Shown: piece after piece, positions 5,335 to 64,000 of the stretch
Numbering within the stretch: position 1 is the stretch's first letter
Layout of the letters: each line of letters opens with the position of its first letter
The notes under the pieces: model-generated
Seen by the model: only the letters and a program-made list of their open reading frames with translations
Told to the model about the DNA's origin: nothing
Databases searched by the model: none
Source: Qipengyuania gaetbuli
GTDB lineage: Bacteria > Pseudomonadota > Alphaproteobacteria > Sphingomonadales > Sphingomonadaceae
Assembly: GCF_009827315.1 (NCBI RefSeq)
Contig: NZ_WTYF01000003.1
Coordinates: 362,708 to 426,707 of the forward strand
Direction: 5' to 3'
DNA: 64,000 nt
Position numbers and translations under genes: made by a program

Positions 5335-6129
5335 TTAGAAGCGTTCGAGGCGCTCGATACCGTGCTGGGCGAAGGTGGAGGCGAGCCGCTCGAAATCGGC
5401 CAGATCGCCGGTGGTCACGGCAAGGCCCGGCTCGGCGCGGGTGAAGGGCTGCCCTTCGACGAGATGCGCGATCCGGCGCGCGATACCTGCGGCGCCGTGG
5501 ACGAAGGTCACGTCCTGCCCGAACGCCTCGCGCAGTTCCGGCTCCAGAAGCGGGAAGTGGGTGCAGGCGAGTACCACCGTGTCCATGTTCTCGCCGCCCG
5601 GCTGGAGGACGAGGCCGGACGCGGCGCGCGCGACATCGTCCACGCTGATCGTCTCGCCGCGAAGCTTCGCCTCGCCCAGCGCCACGAGGTCGTTCGCGCC
5701 GTAGCGCAGCAGCACCTTGTCGCTGGCAAATTCCCGCTCGAGATCGTCGACATAGCGCTGGCGCACAGTCGCTTGCGTGCCGAGCAGGCCGATCGTGCCG
5801 GTCTTCGTAACCGCTGCGGCGGGCTTGATCGCGGGAACGGTGCCGACGATGGGCGTTTCCAGCACCTCGCGGACCATGCCGAGCGCAATCGTGCTGGCGG
5901 TGTTGCAGGCGATGCAGATGAGGCGCGGCTGGTAGCGTTCCGCCATGCGCCCCAGAAGCCCGGCGACCCGCGCGGCGACCTCCGCCTCGCTTTTCGCGCC
6001 ATAGGGCAGGCCGGCCATGTCGGCGGCGTAGATGACCGGCGCATCGGGCAGCAGCTTGCGCATTTCGGCAAGGACGGTGAGCCCGCCTACGCCGGAATCG
6101 AACAGCAGGATCGGGGAAGAAGCGTCCAA
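5335..6129 (-). CDS. murI: Glutamate racemase
   Basis: It interconverts L- and D-glutamate to supply D-Glu for peptidoglycan. The 264-aa protein has FDSGVGGLTVL at the N-terminus, the first catalytic cysteine in ACNTAS and the second in ACTHFP, and PYGAKS in between. The start is taken as TTG at 6129 with AGGGGA about nine bases upstream; the frame stays open much further upstream, but that part is antisense to plsY. It is divergent from plsY across a gap of about 115 bp. Confidence 0.95.
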   Translation of the reverse strand: MDASSPILLFDSGVGGLTVLAEMRKLLPDAPVIYAADMAGLPYGAKSEAEVAARVAGLLGRMAERYQPRLICIACNTASTIALGMVREVLETPIVGTVPAIKPAAAVTKTGTIGLLGTQATVRQRYVDDLEREFASDKVLLRYGANDLVALGEAKLRGETISVDDVARAASGLVLQPGGENMDTVVLACTHFPLLEPELREAFGQDVTFVHGAAGIARRIAHLVEGQPFTRAEPGLAVTTGDLADFERLASTFAQHGIERLERF

Positions 6130-6243
6130 AATCGATAGTCCCCTGGCCCCGGCGCTTGTCGAAGGGGCGCGTTTCACATTAGGGCGGTAGAGGTAGAGGG
6201 GCGCAGGCTGCAAGCCAAGTCCCGACAGTCGCGGGGAAAAGCA

Positions 6244-6843
6244 GTGCCGACCGAACTCACCATCAATGTCCTCTGGGCCGCCCTGTTGGGCTACGGCTTC
6301 GGTTCCATCCCCTTCGGCCTGATCCTGGCCAAGCTGGCGGGCAAGGGCGATATCCGGACCATCGGCAGCGGCAATATCGGCGCCACGAACGTCCTGCGCA
6401 CCGGCAGCAAGGGGCTGGCTGCGGCAACGCTGCTGCTCGACCTCGCCAAGGGTTTCGTCCCCGTCTGGCTGGCGGGAATGTGGTTCTGGCAGGACATGGG
6501 CTGGACCGCGCTGTTCGCGGTGATCGGCCATGCCTTTCCCGTCTGGCTGGGCTTCAAGGGCGGCAAGGGCGTGGCGACCAACGCGGGCGTCAGCTTCGCG
6601 CTCGCCTGGCCGATCGGGCTGGCCTACGCCGTGGTCTGGATCGGCATGCTTGCGATCACTCGCATCAGCTCGCTTGCCGGGATGAGCGCGGTGGTCGCCG
6701 CTGCCGTCGCCGCCTTTGCGCTCGGCGTTCCCACCTTCGCCAAGGTGCTGGCGGTGATCGCCGTGCTGGTCATCTGGCTGCATCGCGAGAACATCCGGCG
6801 CCTCGTCGCAGGGACCGAGCCCAAGGTCGGCTCCAAGGGGTGA
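6244..6843 (+). CDS. plsY: Glycerol-3-phosphate acyltransferase PlsY
   Basis: An integral membrane enzyme that transfers acyl groups from acyl-phosphate to glycerol 3-phosphate, making lysophosphatidic acid for phospholipid synthesis. The 199-aa protein starts at GTG 6244. Visible motifs are GSIPFG in the first membrane segment, the phosphate-binding GSGNIGATN, and GHAFPVWLGFKGGKGVAT with the conserved lysines. Several hydrophobic segments follow. Its stop overlaps the GTG start of dprA (GTGA), so the two genes are translationally coupled. Confidence 0.96.
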   Translation: MPTELTINVLWAALLGYGFGSIPFGLILAKLAGKGDIRTIGSGNIGATNVLRTGSKGLAAATLLLDLAKGFVPVWLAGMWFWQDMGWTALFAVIGHAFPVWLGFKGGKGVATNAGVSFALAWPIGLAYAVVWIGMLAITRISSLAGMSAVVAAAVAAFALGVPTFAKVLAVIAVLVIWLHRENIRRLVAGTEPKVGSKG

Positions 6844-7955
6844 ACGAACTCGCCCGGCCGCCAGCGGCATCGCTCACGCAGGAAGAGGCTTTCGCGCGCA
6901 TCCGGCTGCTGCGCTCGCCCAATATCGGTCCGGTCAGTTATGCCATGTTGCTGGCGCGGTTCGGCACGGCCGTCGCCGCGCTCGATGCCCTGCCGGACCT
7001 CGGCAAGCGCGGGGGGCGCCAGTACCGCGCCGCGCCCGCAGACCGGATCGAGCGCGAGGTCGATGCCGTCAGGCGGGCAGGGGCCAAGTACCTCTTCCAC
7101 GACCAGCCCGATTTTCCTGCGCTGCTGGCCGAGGTGGACGGTGCGCCGCCGATCCTGACCTATCGCGGCGACCTGTCGCTGGCCTCTGCACCCTGCGTTG
7201 CCCTGGTCGGCGCGCGCAACGCCAGCGCGGCTGCGGTGAAGCTGGCCCGCGAATTCGGGAAGGGCCTTGCCGAGGCAGGCTTCACCGTTGTTTCCGGCCT
7301 TGCCCGGGGCATAGACGGCGCGGCGCACGAGGGAGCCTTCCCGCGCACCATCGGGGTCATCGCCAGCGGTATCGACATCGCCTATCCGCCGCAGCACGAG
7401 GCCTTGCAGGAGCGGATCGCGAGCGAGGGCCTGCTGATCGCGGAACAGCCCCCCGGCACCGAACCGCGCGGCAGCCACTTCCCCAGCCGCAACCGCATCA
7501 TTGCAGGGTTGGCCAGCGGCACGCTAGTGGTCGAGGCGGCGGTCAAGTCCGGCAGCCTGATCACGGCGCGGCTGGCGGGCGAGGCGGGGCGCGAGGTCAT
7601 GGCAATCCCCGGCTCCCCGCTCGAAGCGCGCAGCCACGGCTGCAATCACCTGATCCGCGAAGGCGCGGTGCTGGTGCAGTCGCCAGAGGACGTGGTGGAA
7701 CTGCTCACGGGCTTCGACGGCACCCCGCGCTCGACCTTCCGCGAGCCGGTGTCGCAATTCGATTTCGAACCGGGCGAAATGGCCGAGGCGCAGCCGGCAG
7801 ACATCGCCGCGCTGCTGACGACCGCGCCGGTCGCTATCGATGAACTCATCCGCCAGTCAGGCGAAAGTGCGGCGGCAGTGCAATTGGCGCTGTTGGAACT
7901 GGAGATTGCCGGTCGGCTGGAGCGGCATGCGGCAGGCCGGGTGAGTTTGGCCTGA
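6840..7955 (+). CDS. dprA: DNA-processing protein DprA/Smf
   Basis: It binds incoming single-stranded DNA and loads RecA during natural transformation. The 371-aa product starts at GTG 6840, overlapping the plsY stop. A helix-hairpin region (NIGPVSYAMLLARFG) precedes the Rossmann-like core with VALVGARNAS, VVSGLARGIDGAAHEGA, EQPPGTEPRGSHFPSRNRII and the SGSLITARLAGE run. A C-terminal winged-helix (DprA_WH-like) domain ends the protein. In many alphaproteobacteria topA follows directly; here two reverse-strand genes and repeat copies intervene. Confidence 0.96.
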   Translation: MNELARPPAASLTQEEAFARIRLLRSPNIGPVSYAMLLARFGTAVAALDALPDLGKRGGRQYRAAPADRIEREVDAVRRAGAKYLFHDQPDFPALLAEVDGAPPILTYRGDLSLASAPCVALVGARNASAAAVKLAREFGKGLAEAGFTVVSGLARGIDGAAHEGAFPRTIGVIASGIDIAYPPQHEALQERIASEGLLIAEQPPGTEPRGSHFPSRNRIIAGLASGTLVVEAAVKSGSLITARLAGEAGREVMAIPGSPLEARSHGCNHLIREGAVLVQSPEDVVELLTGFDGTPRSTFREPVSQFDFEPGEMAEAQPADIAALLTTAPVAIDELIRQSGESAAAVQLALLELEIAGRLERHAAGRVSLA

Positions 7956-7973
7956 CGTCAGCAATTGGGGTGG

Positions 7974-8354
7974 CTAGCTGCCGTTCGGTTCCAGCCGCCA
8001 ATTCTTTGGTAAATCGGCGAAATAACCCCATGATTGCCAGGAATTTTCGCTGCCAGATGGTCGGCTCGACAACCGCCACTCTGGCGGGTCGGGAAAGCCA
8101 TGCCACGCCAGCTGCATCAGCAACAGGTCTTCGCCATTTTCCGTGGCATAATACTCGACATCGTATCCTGTCAGCTTTTCTCTTTCGATACCAAACACCG
8201 ACGATCCAGCTTGTCTTATCGATGCCCAGCGAATGGGCTTTGTCGCTCTTTCTAGAAAACCGGCGAGTTGGGCGTCCGCTATTTCGTCGGAAGCGTCCCA
8301 TGGGTCAGCTTCCCAATCGTTTGCAGCGGAATTCATACGGTCGTCTTGCGACAT
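7974..8354 (-). CDS. Hypothetical acidic protein in the dprA-topA islet
   Basis: A 126-aa acidic, Trp-rich soluble protein with no signal peptide or membrane segment. Recognisable runs include WEADPWDASDEIADAQLAGFLERATKPIRW near the N-terminus (read in two parts) and a C-terminal half with WHGFPDPPEW. I do not recognise the family. It is convergent with dprA with only 18 bp between stops, and a copy of the dispersed repeat lies about 40 bp upstream of its start. Its base composition looks lower in GC than dprA and topA, consistent with acquisition. Confidence 0.6.
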   Translation of the reverse strand: MSQDDRMNSAANDWEADPWDASDEIADAQLAGFLERATKPIRWASIRQAGSSVFGIEREKLTGYDVEYYATENGEDLLLMQLAWHGFPDPPEWRLSSRPSGSENSWQSWGYFADLPKNWRLEPNGS

Positions 8355-8391
8355 TCATGCCTCCTGTCTGACACTAATTCGCCACTCGAAC

Positions 8392-8482
8392 GTCCGCAAT
8401 CGGGTCGTTAGCTGACTGTCGGCTCCTGTCACATCGATAACTCGGAAAATCCTTCATGAACTGGGGTGGGAATCTGCCGTCA
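8392..8482 (-). repeat. Dispersed repeat of about 90 bp, copy L1 (inverted relative to right-end copies)
   Basis: Read on the minus strand this contains the landmarks of the right-end copies: a CCCACCCC block, then CCGAGTTATCGATGTGACAGGAG, then GCTAACGACCCGATTGCGGAC at the 3' end (written here in separate blocks). It lies between the two islet genes and touches the stop codon of the upstream one (8480-8482). Same family as the copies at 62084, 62397, 62784, 63195 and 63925. Confidence 0.8.
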
Positions 8483-9028
8483 GAGTTCAACCGATCCAGC
8501 TAACACCTTTGTGCGATCCACTTGTGGGAATACCCCTATTGCCTCTGCAATTATTCGACGCCCTTCAACGGTCTCGGGCGTTTCGCATTGGGGATCGAGC
8601 ACGGTCAAAGCGGACTTTTCGCCACTTTCAAATCCCACGTAGTATTCGATAGCAGGATGAAGCCGTTCGGGGCATCCGGGCATGGAAGTAAAGAGGTCTT
8701 GTGCGTTGTCGGAACGAAGACGCGCTAAACTTCGACGTAATCGATTGGCGGTAATGGGGAGAAGCTTGCCGTCAGCGCGACTGAGAGTTTCTGGTGGGGT
8801 TTCGTTCCGGTATCCGATGATCTCAATCTGGTAGGAGTTGTCGGGGTGAATTAAGACATTGAGGGTCCTTGAGGGAGACTCCTCGCTTTCCACCTCGAAG
8901 TTCCAACCGAAGCCTACATCGGCCTGAGCGAGCCGCTCATCGCTCCAGACTTCCTCGCCTAGCAAGTTTTGGTCAGAGCATCCGGCCGCGCCAAGAGCGA
9001 GAATCGCAAGGAAAAAAGCGGGTCGCAT
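8480..9028 (-). CDS. Putative lipoprotein in the dprA-topA islet
   Basis: A 182-aa predicted lipoprotein of unknown function. The ATG at 9028 opens a type II signal peptide (MRPAFFLAILALGAAGC) with lipobox LGAAGC and Cys at residue 17. The mature part is acidic and has two further cysteines (MPGCPERLHP, LDPQCETPE) that could form a disulfide in the periplasm. The frame is open 18 codons further upstream, but the signal peptide decides the start. It runs opposite to dprA and topA and is bracketed by two copies of the dispersed repeat. Confidence 0.65.
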   Translation of the reverse strand: MRPAFFLAILALGAAGCSDQNLLGEEVWSDERLAQADVGFGWNFEVESEESPSRTLNVLIHPDNSYQIEIIGYRNETPPETLSRADGKLLPITANRLRRSLARLRSDNAQDLFTSMPGCPERLHPAIEYYVGFESGEKSALTVLDPQCETPETVEGRRIIAEAIGVFPQVDRTKVLAGSVEL

Positions 9029-9055
9029 CGGTCTCAGGATAGTGAAATCCTGAAT

Positions 9056-9080
9056 GTCCGCAAACGGGTCGTTAGCTGCC
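9056..9080 (-). repeat. Dispersed repeat, partial copy L2
   Basis: The minus strand carries the terminal block GCTAACGACCC-TTTGCGGAC of the repeat family. The rest of the unit is missing or too diverged to align by eye, apart from a possible CACCC trace further on. It marks the topA-side edge of the two-gene islet. Confidence 0.65.
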
Positions 9081-9182: not shown

Positions 9183-11723
9183 ATGCAACTGGTCATCGTA
9201 GAATCGCCGGCCAAGGCGAAAACCATCGAGAAATACCTCGGCAAGGATTTCAAGGTCCTCGCCTCCTACGGCCATGTCCGCGACCTGCCGCCCAAGGATG
9301 GCAGCGTGCGTCCGGACGAGGATTTCGCGATGGACTGGGAACTCTACCGGGACAAGCAGAGCCGGTTCAAGGAAATCGCCGACAACGCCAAGAAGGCGGA
9401 TCGCCTGATCCTCGCCACCGACCCCGATCGCGAGGGGGAGGCGATTTCGTGGCACGTTCGCGAACTGCTGGCCAAGCGCAAGGCGCTGCCCAAGGAAGTC
9501 GACCGCGTGACTTTCAACGCCATCACCAAGCAGGCGGTGACCGATGCGATGAAGGCCCCGCGCGAGCTCGACCAGCCGCTGATCGACGCATATCTCGCCC
9601 GCCGCGCGCTGGATTATCTCTACGGTTTCACACTTTCGCCGGTCCTCTGGCGCCGCCTTCCCGGCGCGAAGAGCGCGGGCCGCGTGCAGTCGGTGGCGCT
9701 GCGCATCATCGTCGACCGCGAGATCGAGATCGAGCACTTCAAGGCCGACGAATACTGGTCAGTCATCGCCAAGCTGGAGCAGGACGGGACGCAGTTCGAC
9801 GCCCGGCTGGTCAAGGTCGACGGGCAGAAACTCGACAAGCTGACTCTCGGTAACGAAGGCAGCGCCAAGGCCGCCAAGAAGGCGGTCGAGGATGCGCGCT
9901 TCACGGTCGAGGATATCGAAACGAAGCCGCTGAAGCGCAATCCCGCGCCACCGTTCACCACCTCGACGCTGCAGCAGGAAGCCGCCCGCAAGCTGGGCTT
10001 TTCGGCCAGCCACACGATGCGCCTCGCCCAGTCGCTCTACGAGGCGGGTGCCATCACCTACATGCGTACCGACGGCGTGCAGATGGACGGCAGCGCCATC
10101 AATGCCTGCCGCAAGGCCATCGCCGATCGCTACGATGCCTATTACCTGCCCGACAAGCCGCGGTTCTATTCGACCAAGGCCAAGAATGCGCAGGAAGCCC
10201 ACGAAGCGATCCGTCCCACCGATTTCAACCGCGACCGCGCGGGCTCGGGAGACGAGGGCAAGCTTTACGACCTGATCTTCAAGCGCGCGATGGCGAGCCA
10301 GATGGCCGCCGCGCAGCTCGAACGCACCACCATCACCCTGCGTGATGGAACCGGCAAGCACGAGCTTCGCGCGACCGGCCAGGTGGTGAAGTTCCCGGGC
10401 TATTTCGCAGTCTACCAGGAAGGCTTCGACGACAAGGACGACGACGAAGACGGCCTGCTGCCGGTAGTGAACAAGGGCGATGCCCCGGCCAAGAAGGCGG
10501 TCGAGGCGAACCAGCATTTCACCCAGCCGCCGCCCCGCTATTCCGAGGCGAGCCTGGTCAAGAAGCTGGAAGAGCTCGGTATCGGGCGTCCGTCGACCTA
10601 TGCCAGCACTATCCAGACCATCCGCGACCGCAATTACGTCAGGATGGAGAAAAACCGTTTCTTTGCAGAGGAATCGGGCCGACTCCTGACAGCATTTCTG
10701 GAACGTTTCTTCCCGCAATATGTCGCGTTCGATTATACGGCCGGGCTCGAGGAAGAGCTCGATACGGTGTCCGACGGGCGCGAGGACTGGAAGCAGCTGC
10801 TCGAGGCCTTCTGGCGCGATTTCAAGCCCAAGACCGAAGAGGTCATGGACAAGAAGCCGTCTGAAGTGACCGAGGTGCTCGACGACTTCCTCGCCGACTA
10901 CCTTTTCCCCGAACGCGCCGACGGCAAGGACCCGCGCCATTGCCCGCTCTGTGAAACCGAGGGGCGCGATGGCGGCAGGCTAGCCCTGCGCGGTGGTCGT
11001 TATGGCGCTTTCGTCGCCTGTGCCAACTATCCCGAGTGCAAGTTCACCCGCCAGTTCGCCAAGCCCGGTAGCGAGGGTGAAGACGGCGGCCAGGACGCGG
11101 TGCTGGGCGAAGATCCGGAAACCGGCCTTCCGGTCGAACGCAAGACCGGCCGCTTCGGGCCGTACGTCCAGCTTGGCGAGGGCAAGGACGCCAAGCGGGC
11201 GAGCATTCCCAAGGACCTCGACGATTTCGATCTGGAGTGGGCACTCAAGCTGCTCGCCCTGCCGCGCATCGTCGGTGCGCATCCGGAAACCGGCAAGGAA
11301 ATCGAAGCGAATATAGGGCGTTACGGGCCATATCTTCGTCATGATGGAAAATACGGAAAGCTGACCTCGACCCGCGAAGTGTTCGAAGTCGGCATGAACC
11401 GTGCTGTGGCGATCCTGTCCGAGGCGGCTAACCGAAAAGGCGGCGCACGCGGCAAGGCGGAACCGATCAAGACGCTGGGCGCGCACCCGACCAGCGGCGG
11501 CGAGATCAAGGTCATGCCGGGCCGCTATGGCCCCTATGTCACCGACGGTACGACCAACGCGACGATCCCCAAGGACGTGAAGCCCGAGGACGTGACCGAG
11601 GAACAGGCCATCGCGCTGATCGATGCCCGCGCAGCCAAGGGACCGGCCAAGAAGAAGGGGCGCAAAAAAGCCGCCCCGAAGAAGAAGGCAGCGCCCAAGA
11701 AAAAGGCCTCGGCGAAGGACTAG
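9183..11723 (+). CDS. topA: DNA topoisomerase I
   Basis: A type IA topoisomerase of 846 aa that relaxes negative supercoils. The N-terminal TOPRIM domain has VIVESPAKAKTI with the catalytic Glu and DPDREGEA with the metal-binding acids. The active-site tyrosine is Tyr293 in ITYMRTDG, and IRPTDF and the GIGRPSTYA block follow. The C-terminal part has a four-Cys zinc ribbon (CPLC...C..YPEC), then repeated GRYGPY-type modules, and a Lys/Ala-rich tail that should bind DNA non-specifically. ATG at 9183 directly starts the TOPRIM strand. Adjacent to dprA apart from the inserted islet. Confidence 0.97.
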   Translation: MQLVIVESPAKAKTIEKYLGKDFKVLASYGHVRDLPPKDGSVRPDEDFAMDWELYRDKQSRFKEIADNAKKADRLILATDPDREGEAISWHVRELLAKRKALPKEVDRVTFNAITKQAVTDAMKAPRELDQPLIDAYLARRALDYLYGFTLSPVLWRRLPGAKSAGRVQSVALRIIVDREIEIEHFKADEYWSVIAKLEQDGTQFDARLVKVDGQKLDKLTLGNEGSAKAAKKAVEDARFTVEDIETKPLKRNPAPPFTTSTLQQEAARKLGFSASHTMRLAQSLYEAGAITYMRTDGVQMDGSAINACRKAIADRYDAYYLPDKPRFYSTKAKNAQEAHEAIRPTDFNRDRAGSGDEGKLYDLIFKRAMASQMAAAQLERTTITLRDGTGKHELRATGQVVKFPGYFAVYQEGFDDKDDDEDGLLPVVNKGDAPAKKAVEANQHFTQPPPRYSEASLVKKLEELGIGRPSTYASTIQTIRDRNYVRMEKNRFFAEESGRLLTAFLERFFPQYVAFDYTAGLEEELDTVSDGREDWKQLLEAFWRDFKPKTEEVMDKKPSEVTEVLDDFLADYLFPERADGKDPRHCPLCETEGRDGGRLALRGGRYGAFVACANYPECKFTRQFAKPGSEGEDGGQDAVLGEDPETGLPVERKTGRFGPYVQLGEGKDAKRASIPKDLDDFDLEWALKLLALPRIVGAHPETGKEIEANIGRYGPYLRHDGKYGKLTSTREVFEVGMNRAVAILSEAANRKGGARGKAEPIKTLGAHPTSGGEIKVMPGRYGPYVTDGTTNATIPKDVKPEDVTEEQAIALIDARAAKGPAKKKGRKKAAPKKKAAPKKKASAKD

Positions 11724-25309: not shown

Positions 25310-25407
25310 TCCGATACCGGCGCGCGGAACGCGCCAGTTACTGGACAGTTCAGCCGTTCGGGCGCATTAGCGCGCCTTCATTCCTCTTGGGGGCAAGCAG
25401 GATCGCA

Positions 25408-26094
25408 ATGGAACCCGCCTTCAAACCCAAGATCACTCCGATCGACCGAATCCAGGAAAACCTCGTCGCCCGTGTGGAACGGCGCGCACTCAACTGGCTG
25501 TGCGCGAGGCTCCCGCGGCGCGTGTCGCCCGATATGCTGACCGCCTTCGGCATGTTCGGCGCCCTCATGGTGTTCGCCGGATATCTCGGCAGCAATGCCG
25601 ATCGCGACTGGCTGTGGCTGTGCGTCGCAGGCTACGTGGTCCACTGGTTCGGGGATTCACTCGACGGGAGCGTGGCCCGCTTCCGCAAGATCGAGCGGCC
25701 GCGCTACGGCTATTTCCTCGACCACAGCTGCGATGGCCTCGCCACCACGCTGCTGGTCGTAGGGATCGGCCTTAGTCCGTACGTGCAGCTGGAAGTCGCA
25801 CTGGTCGCATTGGCAGGATACCTGCTCATGTCGATCCACGCTTTCCTGTCGGTGCGCGTGCTCGGCGAATTGCGCTTGTCCTACATGAATGCTGGCCCGA
25901 CCGAGCTGAGGTTGGTCCTGATCGCGCTGACACTCGTCATGTATTACGCCGGGCCGGAGGCGCCGGTTGTCTGGCATCTCAACGGCTTCGATCTCTTCGT
26001 CGGGGTGGTGGGGTGCATCCTCGTCGGTCTCTTTGTTCTGCAGACCGCGCAGGTCGCCGGGCGACTGGCGGTGGAAGAGCCTCCCCGCAACTAA
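25408..26094 (+). CDS. CDP-alcohol phosphatidyltransferase family protein
   Basis: A 228-aa inner-membrane enzyme with the complete family motif DG(x)2AR(x)8G(x)3D(x)3D, seen as DSLDGSVARFRK and YGYFLDHSCD. Six hydrophobic segments are visible. Members transfer a phosphoalcohol onto or from CDP-diacylglycerol or CDP-alcohol; the lipid made here cannot be told from the motif. ATG 25408 has AGGA upstream and is preferred over an in-frame TTG at 25387. It stands alone between the helicase and the XRE gene. Confidence 0.85.
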   Translation: MEPAFKPKITPIDRIQENLVARVERRALNWLCARLPRRVSPDMLTAFGMFGALMVFAGYLGSNADRDWLWLCVAGYVVHWFGDSLDGSVARFRKIERPRYGYFLDHSCDGLATTLLVVGIGLSPYVQLEVALVALAGYLLMSIHAFLSVRVLGELRLSYMNAGPTELRLVLIALTLVMYYAGPEAPVVWHLNGFDLFVGVVGCILVGLFVLQTAQVAGRLAVEEPPRN

Positions 26095-54712: not shown

Positions 54713-55933
54713 ATGGCAATTCACAAATTGAAGCCGCTCCAAGTCGAAAAGGAAAAGAGGCCGGGCCGCTACGGTGACGGGAATGGCCTTTATCTTCTCG
54801 TGTCCGATACTGGCGGGAAGTCATGGCTGCTGCGGGTCATGGCCTACGGAACCGACAGGCAGGGCCGAATGAAATGGATGCGCCGAGACATAGGCTTAGG
54901 ACCTCTCAGTCTCGTGAGCCTTGCTGAGGCGCGGGAAATGGCGCGCGAGTTGCGGAAGGCCGCCCGCGATAAGAAAGATCCAACGCAGGTGCGCGATGCG
55001 AAAGAGGAGATCGCACCCACTTTCCGACAGGCGGCCCAGCAATGCCACGAGGCGAAGGCGTCGGGTTGGTCGGACAAGAACGCTGCCGCTTTCCTTTCGT
55101 CGCTTGCGCTGCATGTATATCCGAAGATCGGAGACAAGCCGGTCAGCGACGTTGATGCAAAGGACGTTGCCCTTGTCCTCGGCCCAATCTGGCAAACCAA
55201 AATTGCCCTTTCCAAGAAAATCCGCGCCCGCATCGGGCTTGTGCTTGACTACGCCCACGCAATGGCTTGGCGGACTGATGGTGCGCCGCGTCAAAGCCTC
55301 TCGGCCCTGCTCGCCAAGCAAGCGGAGGGCGGAAACTTCGCCTCGATGCCATACGAAAGCCTGCCCGCATTTATTCAGAAGATTGAAGGCGAGCCGGAAA
55401 CGATGGGTCGCCTCGCCCTGCTGTTCACGATCTACACGGCTGGGCGTAACGGTGAGGTTCGCGGCGCTCGTTGGTCGCAAATCGATTTCGACAAGAAGCT
55501 TTGGAACCGTCCTGCCGATTTGATGGGAAAGACAGGGACGCCGCACACCATCACGCTCTCGCCAGAGGCACTGGCCATACTTGAGCGGGCCAAGGCGTGG
55601 CGGCGGTTGGATGGGGATGGGCTTATATTCGAGGGGAAAGGCGGCAAGCGCCTGTCCGACATGACAATCGGAAAGATCGTGAAGCCTACGGGCTACACGG
55701 TCCATGGCTTCCGCTCAACGTTTCGGACCTGGGCCGCCGAGAAGATGCCGAGTGTGCCGGAAGCGGTCGCTGAGGCGGCTCTGGCCCATACCATCCCTGA
55801 TAAGGTAATCCGCGCTTACAATCGGGCGAAGTTCCTCGAAATGCGGTTCGCGCTGCTGGAGGCTTGGGGGCGTTACGCAGCTGGAAGATCTGGCGAAGTG
55901 ATCCGGTTGCCGCTGAAGGTGCGCGAAGCCTGA
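54713..55933 (+). CDS. Tyrosine-type site-specific integrase (DUF4102 N-terminus)
   Basis: A 406-aa integrase of the P4/prophage-CP4 kind. The N-terminal arm-binding domain (GRYGDGNGLYLLVSDTGGKSW) is the DUF4102 type. The catalytic domain shows the first Arg in TAGRNGEVRGARW, HGFRSTFRTWA with His and Arg, and the last His and nucleophile Tyr in LAHTIPDKVIRAYNRAKF. It should integrate and excise the element that follows. Just downstream are tandem AAACAATCCCC units that could be arm-type sites. Confidence 0.93.
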   Translation: MAIHKLKPLQVEKEKRPGRYGDGNGLYLLVSDTGGKSWLLRVMAYGTDRQGRMKWMRRDIGLGPLSLVSLAEAREMARELRKAARDKKDPTQVRDAKEEIAPTFRQAAQQCHEAKASGWSDKNAAAFLSSLALHVYPKIGDKPVSDVDAKDVALVLGPIWQTKIALSKKIRARIGLVLDYAHAMAWRTDGAPRQSLSALLAKQAEGGNFASMPYESLPAFIQKIEGEPETMGRLALLFTIYTAGRNGEVRGARWSQIDFDKKLWNRPADLMGKTGTPHTITLSPEALAILERAKAWRRLDGDGLIFEGKGGKRLSDMTIGKIVKPTGYTVHGFRSTFRTWAAEKMPSVPEAVAEAALAHTIPDKVIRAYNRAKFLEMRFALLEAWGRYAAGRSGEVIRLPLKVREA

Positions 55934-61574: not shown

Positions 61575-61746
61575 CGCGCGGGTTTCCAGATTGGAGCAGG
61601 CAAAGGGCGGCAATGAACGACGCCCCGTTCTGATGATAACACCTGGAGCCGAAGTAGAAGCGGAGCTTGCTGACTGGCAATCACGATATGGGCCGTGTGA
61701 TGCTGAACCTGTCTTGATCCAGCTTGTCGGATTCACGCCTTCCTAA
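61561..61746 (+). CDS. Small protein with N-terminal coiled-coil start
   Basis: A 61-aa protein starting MPRLSARVSRLEQAKGG, later RRPVLMITPGAEVEAELADW. It is the last gene read in the operon direction; the dispersed repeat block starts 19 bases after its stop, so this may be close to the element's right edge. Confidence 0.5.
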   Translation: MPRLSARVSRLEQAKGGNERRPVLMITPGAEVEAELADWQSRYGPCDAEPVLIQLVGFTPS

Positions 61747-61764
61747 TCCAAAACCCGACATTCC

Positions 61765-61785
61765 GCTAACGACCCGATTGCGGAC
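61765..61785 (+). repeat. Dispersed repeat, partial copy R1
   Basis: GCTAACGACCCGATTGCGGAC is the complete 3' block of the repeat. The 5' part of the unit is not recognisable, so this is a truncated copy. It is the first unit of the right-end array. Confidence 0.75.
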
Positions 61786-61811
61786 ACGGCTGATGCGGCT
61801 ATCCTACCCCA

Positions 61812-62057
61812 ATGGATGACGAAGGCTATACTGGACGCTCTACAGAAGAGAGGTGGGGTTGCATCGCTTCAACTCTCGTCGGTACGCCAATCTTCTTGTT
61901 CTTGCTTGTCGCTGACGCGCTTGGAGACTGTGCGCCTGGCACCTCATGTCAGAAGGGATTTTTGACGCAAGTGCTGCTCCCCTCTTTCGCTATTGCCGCT
62001 ACGGTCGGTCTCATCGTTTGGGGGACCATTAAGATTGGTCGCCGGAGGGGCCGATAG
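61812..62057 (+). CDS. Small membrane protein between repeat copies (array gene 1)
   Basis: An 81-aa protein with two hydrophobic segments (STLVGTPIFLFLLVADAL and VLLPSFAIAATVGLIVWG) separated by a loop with two cysteines (DCAPGTSCQKG), and a basic end (GRRRGR). No family known. Exactly one gene lies between repeats R1 and R2. Confidence 0.5.
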   Translation: MDDEGYTGRSTEERWGCIASTLVGTPIFLFLLVADALGDCAPGTSCQKGFLTQVLLPSFAIAATVGLIVWGTIKIGRRRGR

Positions 62058-62083
62058 GGACGATTGGGAAGGGCTTGGCAGAC

Positions 62084-62165
62084 GTCCGCTTTCCACCCAG
62101 TTCTCGCCTAATTTTCGGAGCATAGGTTATGCCAAGAGCGGACGGACAATGATCGACCCGATACC
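62084..62165 (+). repeat. Dispersed repeat, diverged copy R2
   Basis: It begins GTCCGCTTTCCACCC and includes GAGCGGACGGACAATGATCGACCCGAT (read in parts). The middle is diverged (TTTTCGGAGCATAGGTTATG). Same orientation as R1 and R3-R6. It ends about 12 bases before the next gene start. Confidence 0.65.
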
Positions 62166-62177
62166 GGTCATTGCCCA

Positions 62178-62387
62178 ATGAAGATATATGCACCGGATAT
62201 GACTACTTTGGTAAGCAGCGCGATCGTCCTTTTCCTTGGAGTTTTGGCTGTCCGGTTGGCGAAGTTCTCCCGCACGAGTGTGCGATTGCGCGACTGGACA
62301 GTCGCCATTCTCGCAGGCCTCTTTGCCCTTACGTCCGCTGTTGGGGCGGCTATGACAGTTCTTGATCTTCTTGGACTCGTAAGGTAA
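62178..62387 (+). CDS. Small membrane protein between repeat copies (array gene 2)
   Basis: A 69-aa protein with two hydrophobic segments (TTLVSSAIVLFLGVLAVRL and VAILAGLFALTSAVGAAMTV) joined by a basic loop (KFSRTSVRLRD). Function unknown. Its stop is about ten bases before repeat R3. Confidence 0.5.
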   Translation: MKIYAPDMTTLVSSAIVLFLGVLAVRLAKFSRTSVRLRDWTVAILAGLFALTSAVGAAMTVLDLLGLVR

Positions 62388-62396
62388 TCTTGTTAG

Positions 62397-62482
62397 GTCA
62401 GCTTGCCACCCCTCTGACGACGCTTTCACCGAGTTGACGATGTGCTGGTAGCGGACCGACGGCTATCTGCCCGTATGCGGAC
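62397..62482 (+). repeat. Dispersed repeat, copy R3
   Basis: Contains GCTTGCCACCCCTCTGACGA, CTTTCACCGAGTTGACGATGTG, TAGCGGACCGACGGCTATCTG and ends in ATGCGGAC. It lies between convergent array genes 2 and 3, and its last base is the first base of gene 3's stop codon complement. Confidence 0.75.
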
Positions 62483-62760
62483 TAGAAAACCAAGAGCACA
62501 GCGGGAGAAATCAGCAGAGCTCCCAAAGCCCAATGCCACCAGCGGGCGTTTTGGATATTAGGGAGTGCTCGGGCGAAGGCAGCTCCAATCCCGGCAAAAA
62601 CCAAGAGACCCGCTCCCACTAGTTTCGCATTCTCCGCTTGCGAGAACATTCCTAGCGAAAACGCCGCAAGGATACATATCGCTACGCTCAGCCAAACGTA
62701 GACTTGGGCTATCCAGCGCCAGCTCCTCAGCGATTCTTCGTTACGATAGGGCGGAATCAT
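62482..62760 (-). CDS. Small membrane protein between repeat copies (array gene 3)
   Basis: A 92-aa protein with three hydrophobic segments, starting MIPPYRNEESLRSWRWIAQV and ending LGALLISPAVLLVF. The order of a short polar head and then helices resembles small inner-membrane proteins. Its stop codon abuts repeat R3, and its start lies 24 bases before repeat R4. Function unknown. Confidence 0.5.
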   Translation of the reverse strand: MIPPYRNEESLRSWRWIAQVYVWLSVAICILAAFSLGMFSQAENAKLVGAGLLVFAGIGAAFARALPNIQNARWWHWALGALLISPAVLLVF

Positions 62761-62783
62761 GCAGCAAACCTAGTTTTGACGGC

Positions 62784-62868
62784 GTCCGCTTTCCACCCCT
62801 CTGAAGCCGCTTTCACCGAGCTAGCGCGGTGCCAGGAACGGACATCCAGTTAACGAACCGATTGCGGA
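62784..62868 (+). repeat. Dispersed repeat, copy R4
   Basis: One of the most complete copies: GTCCGCTTTCCACCCC, TTTCACCGAGCTAGCG, GTGCCAGGAACGGACATC, then AGTTAACGAACCGATTGCGGA. Orientation as R1-R6. It ends four bases from the stop codon of array gene 4. Confidence 0.8.
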
Positions 62869-62871
62869 AGT

Positions 62872-63174
62872 TCAGCGCCTCAATCCTTCCACGTAGGAGC
62901 GGAGTTCCTCAGTGACTGTCACGGCTCGCTCGCGAAATCCGGGCATCGCGCTGAGCCCCATATGCTCGGTTTCCATTTCGACAAGGTAGTCAGCAACATC
63001 GGCATTTGATTGCCCATTCCAAAGCTTCGCAGCTGCTTGGAGCAAATAGGAATCGTATTCGTCTGCGGCCTCCTCAGGCCAGCTGCCATTTGGTCCAGCA
63101 ATCCCAATGGGGTCCCAATGCCCCCATCCGATGTCGCGCAGACACGAGAGCTTGAAAGTCGGAATAGAAGTCAT
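62872..63174 (-). CDS. Widely distributed small protein family (array gene 4)
   Basis: A 100-aa soluble protein. It matches a widespread bacterial pattern I recognise but cannot name with certainty: WDPIGI near residue 21, ADEYDSYLLQAAAKLWNGQS, and DYLVEMETEHMGLSAMPGF. The family often sits in variable regions beside toxins or other cargo; an immunity-like role is speculation. Its stop is four bases from repeat R4, and its start is about 20 bases from repeat R5. Confidence 0.65.
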   Translation of the reverse strand: MTSIPTFKLSCLRDIGWGHWDPIGIAGPNGSWPEEAADEYDSYLLQAAAKLWNGQSNADVADYLVEMETEHMGLSAMPGFRERAVTVTEELRSYVEGLRR

Positions 63175-63194
63175 TGTTTTAGTCTACTTCGCGA

Positions 63195-63282
63195 ACGGCA
63201 AGTTTCCACCCACTTCGTGACCGTTTCACCGAGCTAACGATGAGCCAGGAGCGGACGGGCGGCTAACGACCCGGTTGCGGAC
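63195..63282 (+). repeat. Dispersed repeat, copy R5
   Basis: Near-consensus copy: TTTCCACCCACTTCGTGACC, TTTCACCGAGCTAACGATGA, GCCAGGAGCGGACGGGCG, GCTAACGACCCGGTTGCGGAC. Two GCTAACGA...GCGGAC modules lie in tandem here (63234-63255 and 63262-63282, approximately). Confidence 0.85.
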
Positions 63283-63306
63283 ACAATTTTATCGACATCT
63301 TCCGCG

Positions 63307-63804
63307 TCAAAGTGCCGCAAGCCACCGCTTGAGCTCTTTTGGTCCGCGCAGGCGAATTATCTTGGCCTGATGACCTTCTAGTGCCTGCTCTGTGCGAGGA
63401 CGCGGGCCCCGGTTCCAGAACAAGACGTAGAGGAAAAACTCTAGGTCAAAGCGTTCCGGGCAGCCTTCGGTCATGTCCGGACGTGTGGTGCCACGGTGTC
63501 GGAAGACTCTCAGCATCAGGCGCCAAAGGCAGAGGCCGATGGGAAAGTCGAGGTAGATTATCGCGTCTGCTCTCGGAAGACGGAGATCGAGCGTGCTGCC
63601 GTAATTACCCTCGATCAGCCAGCGATCAGTCGCTACGAGCGCACCCAGTTTTTCTCTCAACTCGTGTTTGTCGGTCTCTACCCATCCGGGTAGCCAGCCC
63701 AAGTGGTCCATATGGTAAATCGGAAGATGAAGCCGACCCCCAAGTTCCCGGGAAAGGGTGGATTTGCCTGAGCCACAGGGTCCAATGATCAAAACGCGCT
63801 GCAA
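63307..63804 (-). CDS. P-loop kinase, FlaR/topology-modulation-like (array gene 5)
   Basis: A 165-aa ATP-binding protein. The P-loop is GPCGSGKSTLSRELG at the N-terminus, followed by LPIYHMDHLGWLPGW, WLIEGNYGSTLDLRLPRADA, IIYLDFP and a C-terminal LRGPKELKRWLAAL. This is the adenylate-kinase-like family annotated as topology modulation protein or FlaR. The start is TTG 63804 because no ATG precedes the P-loop. The substrate is unknown. It lies between repeats R5 and R6. Confidence 0.8.
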   Translation of the reverse strand: MQRVLIIGPCGSGKSTLSRELGGRLHLPIYHMDHLGWLPGWVETDKHELREKLGALVATDRWLIEGNYGSTLDLRLPRADAIIYLDFPIGLCLWRLMLRVFRHRGTTRPDMTEGCPERFDLEFFLYVLFWNRGPRPRTEQALEGHQAKIIRLRGPKELKRWLAAL

Positions 63805-63924
63805 ATTGACCCCCGGTTAGAATGGTTTTGGACGTGATGGACGTGCCGACTCGTTCGACCTGCCATCCCCTACGCGTGCAATCCAACATCTATAGCAGTC
63901 AACTTCAGGCCCCGGCTGCCCAAA

Positions 63925-64000
63925 GTCCGCTTTTCACCCATCTAGCGACAGTTTTGCCGAGTTAGCGATGTGCCAGGAGCGGACGGGCGGCTAACGACCC
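63925..64000 (+). repeat. Dispersed repeat, copy R6 (cut by window edge)
   Basis: GTCCGCTTTTCACCC, GCCGAGTTAGCGATGTGCCAG, GAGCGGACGGGCGGCTAACGACCC (read in parts) match R5 closely. The final TTGCGGAC would lie just outside the window, so the array probably continues. Confidence 0.85.

Follow-up and report, generated by a model that had tools for sequence, protein, structure and literature searches.

The right end of the window (the whole 64,000-nucleotide stretch of DNA from the marine bacterium Qipengyuania gaetbuli analysed here) carries a row of single small genes separated by an 85-bp repeat, and comparison with related sequences indicates that this is probably an integron-like cassette array whose recombinase and sites differ from those of integrons. 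The textbook example of how bacteria capture genes in cassette arrays is the integron. A gene-capture array had been proposed in a sequence-only reading of this DNA, and this view is supported: units are common to different arrays and genera, and for the most part they break at two set positions in the repeat, namely site A (directly after CCACCC) and site B (directly after CGACCC); a putative mechanism is given below. The array in the window consists of the following features:

61748..61785, + strand: R1, 3' half of a repeat (columns ~50-85; nhmmer match 61749-61784, E 2.9e-4), array start; site B at 61775/61776
61776..62098, + strand: unit 1, GATTGCGGAC, gene 61812-62057 (+, 81 aa), GTCCGCTTTCCACCC; limits by analogy with other units
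62084..62167, + strand: repeat R2; site A at 62098/62099, site B at 62159/62160
62160..62411, + strand: unit 2, gene 62178-62387 (+, 69 aa)
62397..62481, + strand: repeat R3; site A at 62411/62412, site B at 62472/62473
62473..62798, - strand (of the gene): unit 3, gene 62482-62760 (92 aa), no Pfam match
62784..62868, + strand: repeat R4; site A at 62798/62799, site B at 62859/62860
62860..63211, - strand (of the gene): unit 4, gene 62872-63174 (100 aa), no Pfam match
63197..63281, + strand: repeat R5, first 6 columns diverged (nhmmer match 63203-63281); site A at 63211/63212, site B at 63272/63273
63273..63939, - strand (of the gene): unit 5, P-loop kinase-like gene 63307-63804 (165 aa)
63925..64000, + strand: repeat R6, ending at column 76 (nhmmer)

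Six copies in the same orientation had been reported. Five of these (R2-R6) stand, all on the + strand with nhmmer E-values of 1e-16 to 4e-22, but R1 is a 3' half only and R6 is incomplete, as contig C3 ends where the window ends. The reported length is likewise correct (R2-R5 are 84-85 bp), but the description of the repeat as palindromic had to be abandoned: among 23 copies, whose mean column identity is 80%, RNAalifold found no conserved base pairs, and ten single-strand folds did not surpass their shuffled counterparts (z -1.69 to +1.74). The repeat ends have a short inverted arm in common (GTCCGC...GCGGAC). As had been read from the sequence, each of the five intervals holds one plausible short gene. 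All five stops lie close to a repeat, at 0-26 bp (62057 at R2, 62387 and 62482 at R3, 62872 at R4, 63307 at R5). The top NCBIfam and Pfam matches of the kinase-like gene of unit 5 are under the cut-off. No Rfam family reached the gathering threshold in the window, and no tRNA anchor of the arrays was seen in the eight sources scanned.

The search of the whole genome and of relatives with a repeat profile, which that reading had recommended, was productive in both. In Q. gaetbuli, where a sequence-only model was applied to 150 out of 1004 first-look candidates, it gave 45 matches at E<=0.1, of which 33 were below 1e-9; copies at contig ends partly duplicate each other in these counts. The strong copies fall into two array zones, one at 745-793 kb of contig C4 and one formed by C1, C2 and the ends of C3 and C4, and one lone spot at C3:371.1 kb. 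Unit X, the kinase-like gene with its repeats, is identical over 795 bp at the C3 end, the C1 and C4 starts and, reversed, the C2 start, while unit Y (538 bp) is found at the C1 and C4 ends, the C3 start and, reversed, the C2 end. We infer that unit X is present in two copies; the contigs would break in the array zone because units X and Y are present twice. Both units look recently copied, and C1 and C2 may be neighbours within one larger zone.

The lone copy is the - strand repeat at 8393-8478 of the window and is part of a second array, which lies between two genes that we take to be dprA-like (ending at 7955) and topA-like (starting at 9183):

7968..9065, - strand: second array, two units
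9065/9066: half site B, with a unit whose gene ends at 8480 and a full repeat at 8393-8478
7967/7968: end site A, with a unit whose gene lies at 7974-8354

Ten congeners were searched for this second array; one was without any match, and in the nine with both flanks matched (46-797 bp spacing), no match to the units was found.

The pattern of breakage is an indication of how these units move. The usual moving unit is B-gene-A, without the 61-bp repeat core; it starts with GATTGCGGAC and ends with GTCCGCTTTCCACCC, and the core that lies between units runs from AGTTCGTGAC to GGCNGCTAACGACCC. Therefore, each 85-bp repeat contains two junctions, A and B, in direct orientation. Within Q. gaetbuli, the duplicated units X, Y, and Z diverge directly after CCACCC or CGACCC. 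A change-point analysis yielded 28 rows that are not independent, 12 of them restating unit X; among the 16 others, the support intervals of the shared-left rows include column 16 in nine of nine cases (five units and four shared chromosomal array flanks), and those of the shared-right rows reach columns 70-76 in six of seven. Two results count against this pattern: the change-point of C4m:25359/L198 is broad (16-55), and the left boundary of C1/C4m is at 52-60. Unit X has moved together with its cores, in contrast to the other units, and repeat cores are mostly not common to arrays, even though the genes that they flank are 87-97% identical.

The comparisons of arrays, which are between species and genera, provide several examples of relocation. 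Q. intermedia (L164) and Q. nanhaisediminis (L193) share a 925-bp block that differs at 2 positions, and the two part directly after CCACCCA, where L164 continues with a repeat core and L193 with the terminator region that also lies beside the recombinase remnant of Q. gaetbuli. In another case (REARRANGEMENT), three consecutive units of Q. xiamenensis (L198, 3239-7516) correspond to three separate places in the Q. gaetbuli genome, C1 720-1145 (94% identity; a second copy at C4m 25361-25830 has 93%), C2rc 5452-6924 (87%), and C4m 64489-66959 (79%). A 1.7-kb unit, 91% identical, adjoins what is presumably groESL in one genome (G208) and what is presumably folE in another (G303), with identity stopping at column 16. 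Gene content varies among genomes at three places: beside groESL, beside folE, and in the interval from the dprA-like to the topA-like gene. Against 160 B and 124 A sites, there are 12 candidates for fused unit-unit junctions and 11 for core-core junctions, several of them borderline and some from overlapping loci. Finally, a contig of Q. xiamenensis 1XM1-15A (contig 5, L189) is 3,749 bp long and carries five repeats and units. Its first 77 bases recur exactly as its last 77; they are not repeat sequence, and the repeats of this contig alone match elsewhere in that genome. Its coverage is 73.8 versus 218.9 and 228.1 in the two largest contigs. Judged from the contig record, there is thus a hint that contig 5 might be a free circle, which would measure 3,672 bp. 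The ends of contig 4 of the same species (L211, low coverage) match other contigs at 91-94% only, and no heterogeneity was shown there.

Arrays of the repeat occur in the Erythrobacteraceae, with the greatest density in Qipengyuania and Croceibacterium. The repeat was matched at E<=1e-4 in 27 of 249 family genomes, with at most 18 candidates scored per genome, which makes the per-genome counts lower bounds. A degenerate pattern, scanned against one genome per species, gave 49 stretches; all but 5 of them also match a profile at E<=1e-3, and four of these 44 (L179, L187, L201, L203) are half-repeat matches only. With the exception of one labelled as a Salinicola metagenome bin, the 44 are from Sphingomonadales, mainly Qipengyuania, Croceibacterium, and Erythrobacter, and the same pattern gave no stretch in viral contigs. 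Dense arrays are present in Q. aquimaris (L174, ten repeats in 6.5 kb), Q. xiamenensis, Q. gaetbuli, and Croceibacterium salegens (G232). By the approximate counts of a simple gene caller over the loci collected, 65 of 96 intervals hold one gene, and the remainder hold two (15), three (9), none (5), or four (2). Adjacent repeats lie on one strand in 101 of 104 pairs; genes are on the same strand as the repeat in 82 cases and on the opposite strand in 48. Arsenic- and metal-transport genes occur in array cargo. Homologues of the kinase-like and unit-4 genes elsewhere were not seen as cassettes, because 12 kinase-like loci (L084-L090, L092, L093, L096, L097, L100) have no repeat in the fetched flank and a match to unit 4 (L091) has one weak repeat match (E 0.075) about 1.1 kb away.

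A candidate for the enzyme is a tyrosine recombinase of 210-212 aa that is encoded within the arrays beside groESL in G078 and G208. It matches PF00589 (Phage_integrase) alone (69.5 and 78.5 bits; cut-off 27.1), it matches XerH (E 8e-6) and XerD (E 4e-5) in the PDB, and R, HxxR, H, and Y, the catalytic motif of tyrosine recombinases, are visible. Sites like those of the repeat accompany its gene. At the best 20 loci returned, repeat-only profiles placed the top B-like site 56-63 bp upstream of the start codon 14 times and the top reversed A site 76-81 bp downstream of the stop 12 times, counts of fixed distance that are inflated because the recombinase flanks share ancestry; relative to 440 control windows, eight A sites reach p<=0.011 and six B sites p<=0.009. 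By pattern search, a reversed A site is found 45-81 bp past the recombinase stop at array loci in 9 of 12 tblastn rows, the gene of G078 that served as query being an exception without a downstream A site. Furthermore, the A end of the array faces the 3' end of the recombinase gene in all seven loci that also have a full repeat within 3.5 kb (G246, G126, G208, Q. intermedia L175, G232 C12, Q. gaetbuli C4, Q. aquimaris L196); on C4, an additional repeat of opposite strand lies beyond the recombinase remnant. The Q. gaetbuli genome has no intact 210-aa recombinase and two remnants only, one of which retains an A site at the place expected from G208 and the flank table (GTCCGCTTACCACCC followed by A).

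We infer that the 210-aa protein is the cognate recombinase of the repeat sites. Matches to it occur in 98 of 249 family genomes, in 16 of the 27 with the repeat versus 82 of the 222 others (a weak co-occurrence), and many are without a repeat in the fetched flank. Among 72,556 plasmid records, 437 match it at E<=1e-20. Four plasmid loci were read by eye; two from Sphingopyxis have a reversed A site, one from Rhizobium has an upstream B-like site only, and one from Croceicoccus has neither. An integrase with an arm-binding domain on C1 (1676-2821) was also considered as the array recombinase and was set aside, as nothing linked its ends to the repeat. The earlier impression of gene capture with an unfamiliar repeat is supported, and the candidate recombinase carries like sites.

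These results have led to the following model. The small (~210 aa) tyrosine recombinase would act on the A and B junctions, such that a unit would leave as a circle with a fused site, GTCCGCTTTCCACCC joined to GATTGCGGAC. The circle would then enter at a core-core junction, at a half site, or through exchange of A with A or of B with B; B would be equivalent to the attL of a phage and A to its attR. New units would be captured at the A junction adjoining the recombinase gene, which would then be the counterpart of the attI next to an integron integrase, and Q. gaetbuli would either use a recombinase supplied in trans or have lost its own recently.

Another way to account for the arrays is an old MITE-like mobile repeat, whose units are exchanged by homologous recombination or gene conversion with no dedicated recombinase. 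The similarity of the repeats would allow some exchange, Q. gaetbuli is without an intact cognate recombinase, the co-occurrence of repeat and recombinase is weak, and unit X, which takes in whole cores, fits homologous exchange above all. However, breakpoints concentrate at two short points rather than across 85 bp, cores mostly differ where the genes beside them are nearly alike, and such sites lie at fixed distances from recombinase genes; this explanation is consequently considered unlikely, although it is the least improbable of the rivals. REP/BIME and MITE elements are short noncoding repeats, mostly extragenic, and the present repeat resembles them in being short, noncoding, and mainly outside genes, but it is non-palindromic, clustered, and bounds genes that relocate. 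The simple alternative offered at the outset, a mobile palindromic repeat spread in gaps, fits poorly because there is no conserved palindrome and the strong copies in Q. gaetbuli are clustered. It is also extremely improbable that the arrays are static, with a repeat that inserts only between genes in an ancient gene order: just 6 of 166 repeats in the loci collected overlap a called gene by >40 nt, which favors that idea, but units are rearranged between genomes and content differs at the three chromosomal places named above.

The likeness to integrons extends to mostly one-gene units, a variable same-strand repeat near gene stops, units that rearrange, and, in some arrays, a terminal tyrosine recombinase gene. 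Nevertheless, a true integron, or an integrase-less attC cluster (CALIN) with odd attC sites, is scarcely credible. The repeat has no conserved hairpin and has two junctions, whereas attC sites are conserved in structure according to the part of the source available (PMC9024848). Genes lie on both strands, the repeat core is usually left behind when a gene moves, and the recombinase, with a Phage_integrase domain only, has its 3' end facing the array. An IntI match (TIGR02249, scored piecewise) was over the cut-off in none of 13 genus genomes; with this model the 210-aa recombinase reaches 19-22 bits (cut-off 265), and a 315-aa frame in G306 has two pieces of 93.8 and 86.7 bits. The array works like an integron but fails on two defining features, an IntI over the cut-off and a folded attC. 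Very improbable, too, is movement by XerC/XerD at dif-like sites. Putative tyrosine recombinases of XerC/D size (frames of 308 and 342 aa) are present in Q. gaetbuli, and one-gene modules between tyrosine-recombinase-type core sites are known from the pdif/Xer modules of Acinetobacter plasmids, but the sites there are mostly in opposite orientations, as far as the available portion of the source goes (PMC7399989). Here nearly all share one orientation, the core is 61 bp, and similar sites go with another recombinase, which scores 57 bits for XerC and 41 for XerD versus cut-offs of 335 and 330. The FimB/FimE invertases are also tyrosine recombinases of about 200 aa, with weak NCBIfam similarity (16-23 bits vs cut-offs of 221-222), but here the sites bound gene units in long arrays. 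Simple tyrosine recombinases have been grouped by Smyshlyaev et al. 2021, and none is described with such arrays in the part of that paper available (PMC8138268); likewise, the open-access literature, in the portions accessible, gave no description of the array in these organisms among the matches listed.

The cassette array with its own recombinase and sites, which we favor, could belong to a second, independently evolved bacterial gene-capture system, and we would put the chances of this as even. Such a system would consist of a 210-aa recombinase, single-gene units, and double core sites used as duplex DNA, with superintegron-like arrays in the Erythrobacteraceae and plasmid-borne relatives, and it would lie outside IntI/attC software. 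For a relative that may or may not have these repeats, Erythrobacter litoralis HTCC 2594, IntegronFinder is reported to have given no integrons (PMC5770381). A clean test is feasible, needing no more than a short recombinase gene and a pair of short sites. If the interpretation is true, cassette capture has more than one origin, this one relying on another recombinase and on sites that do not fold; a system of this kind would be missed by tools that seek IntI and attC, and its arrays would give access to a store of small genes that have been little studied.

The array units carry genes of several kinds, and a tyrosine integrase lies in the array zone:

L011:4410-7083, equivalent to 764.4-767.1 kb of contig C4 of Q. 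gaetbuli: arsenic-type operon, flanked by two repeats
Contig C44 of Croceibacterium salegens (G232), 6446-6694 and 11392-11640: 82-aa gene, two copies in one array, 94% identical, both adjoining repeats
L014:1676-2821, on contig C1 of Q. gaetbuli: tyrosine integrase with an arm-binding domain, within the genome's array zone

The arsenic-type operon encodes an ArsR-like protein, a glyoxalase, a member of the LMWP phosphatase/reductase family, and an SBF transporter; a P-type ATPase and a cation efflux protein are also found as cargo. An additional Phage_integrase match is present at about 55370-55831 of the window (forward strand), approximately 6 kb upstream of the array. In a congener (G306:C13:39672-40496), a 315-aa frame matches pieces of the integron-integrase model at 93.8 and 86.7 bits, both of which are sub-threshold.

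A block that is almost identical in Q. nanhaisediminis (L193:5521) and Q. intermedia (L164:7076) has a different neighbor in each species: in Q. nanhaisediminis it adjoins the terminator region of the recombinase, in Q. intermedia a repeat core. In Q. xiamenensis, the first 77 bases of L189 (contig 5, 1-3749) are the same as its last 77, and these matching ends hint that the contig may close into a 3,672-bp circle carrying five repeats. The stated coverage of L189 is about one-third of the figure stated for the large contigs of Q. xiamenensis. For Q. gaetbuli itself, the graph of contigs C1-C4, with two copies each of the duplicated end units X (795 bp) and Y (538 bp), would be compatible with a single chromosome, and equally with a chromosome accompanied by a ~60-kb circle composed of C1 and C2.
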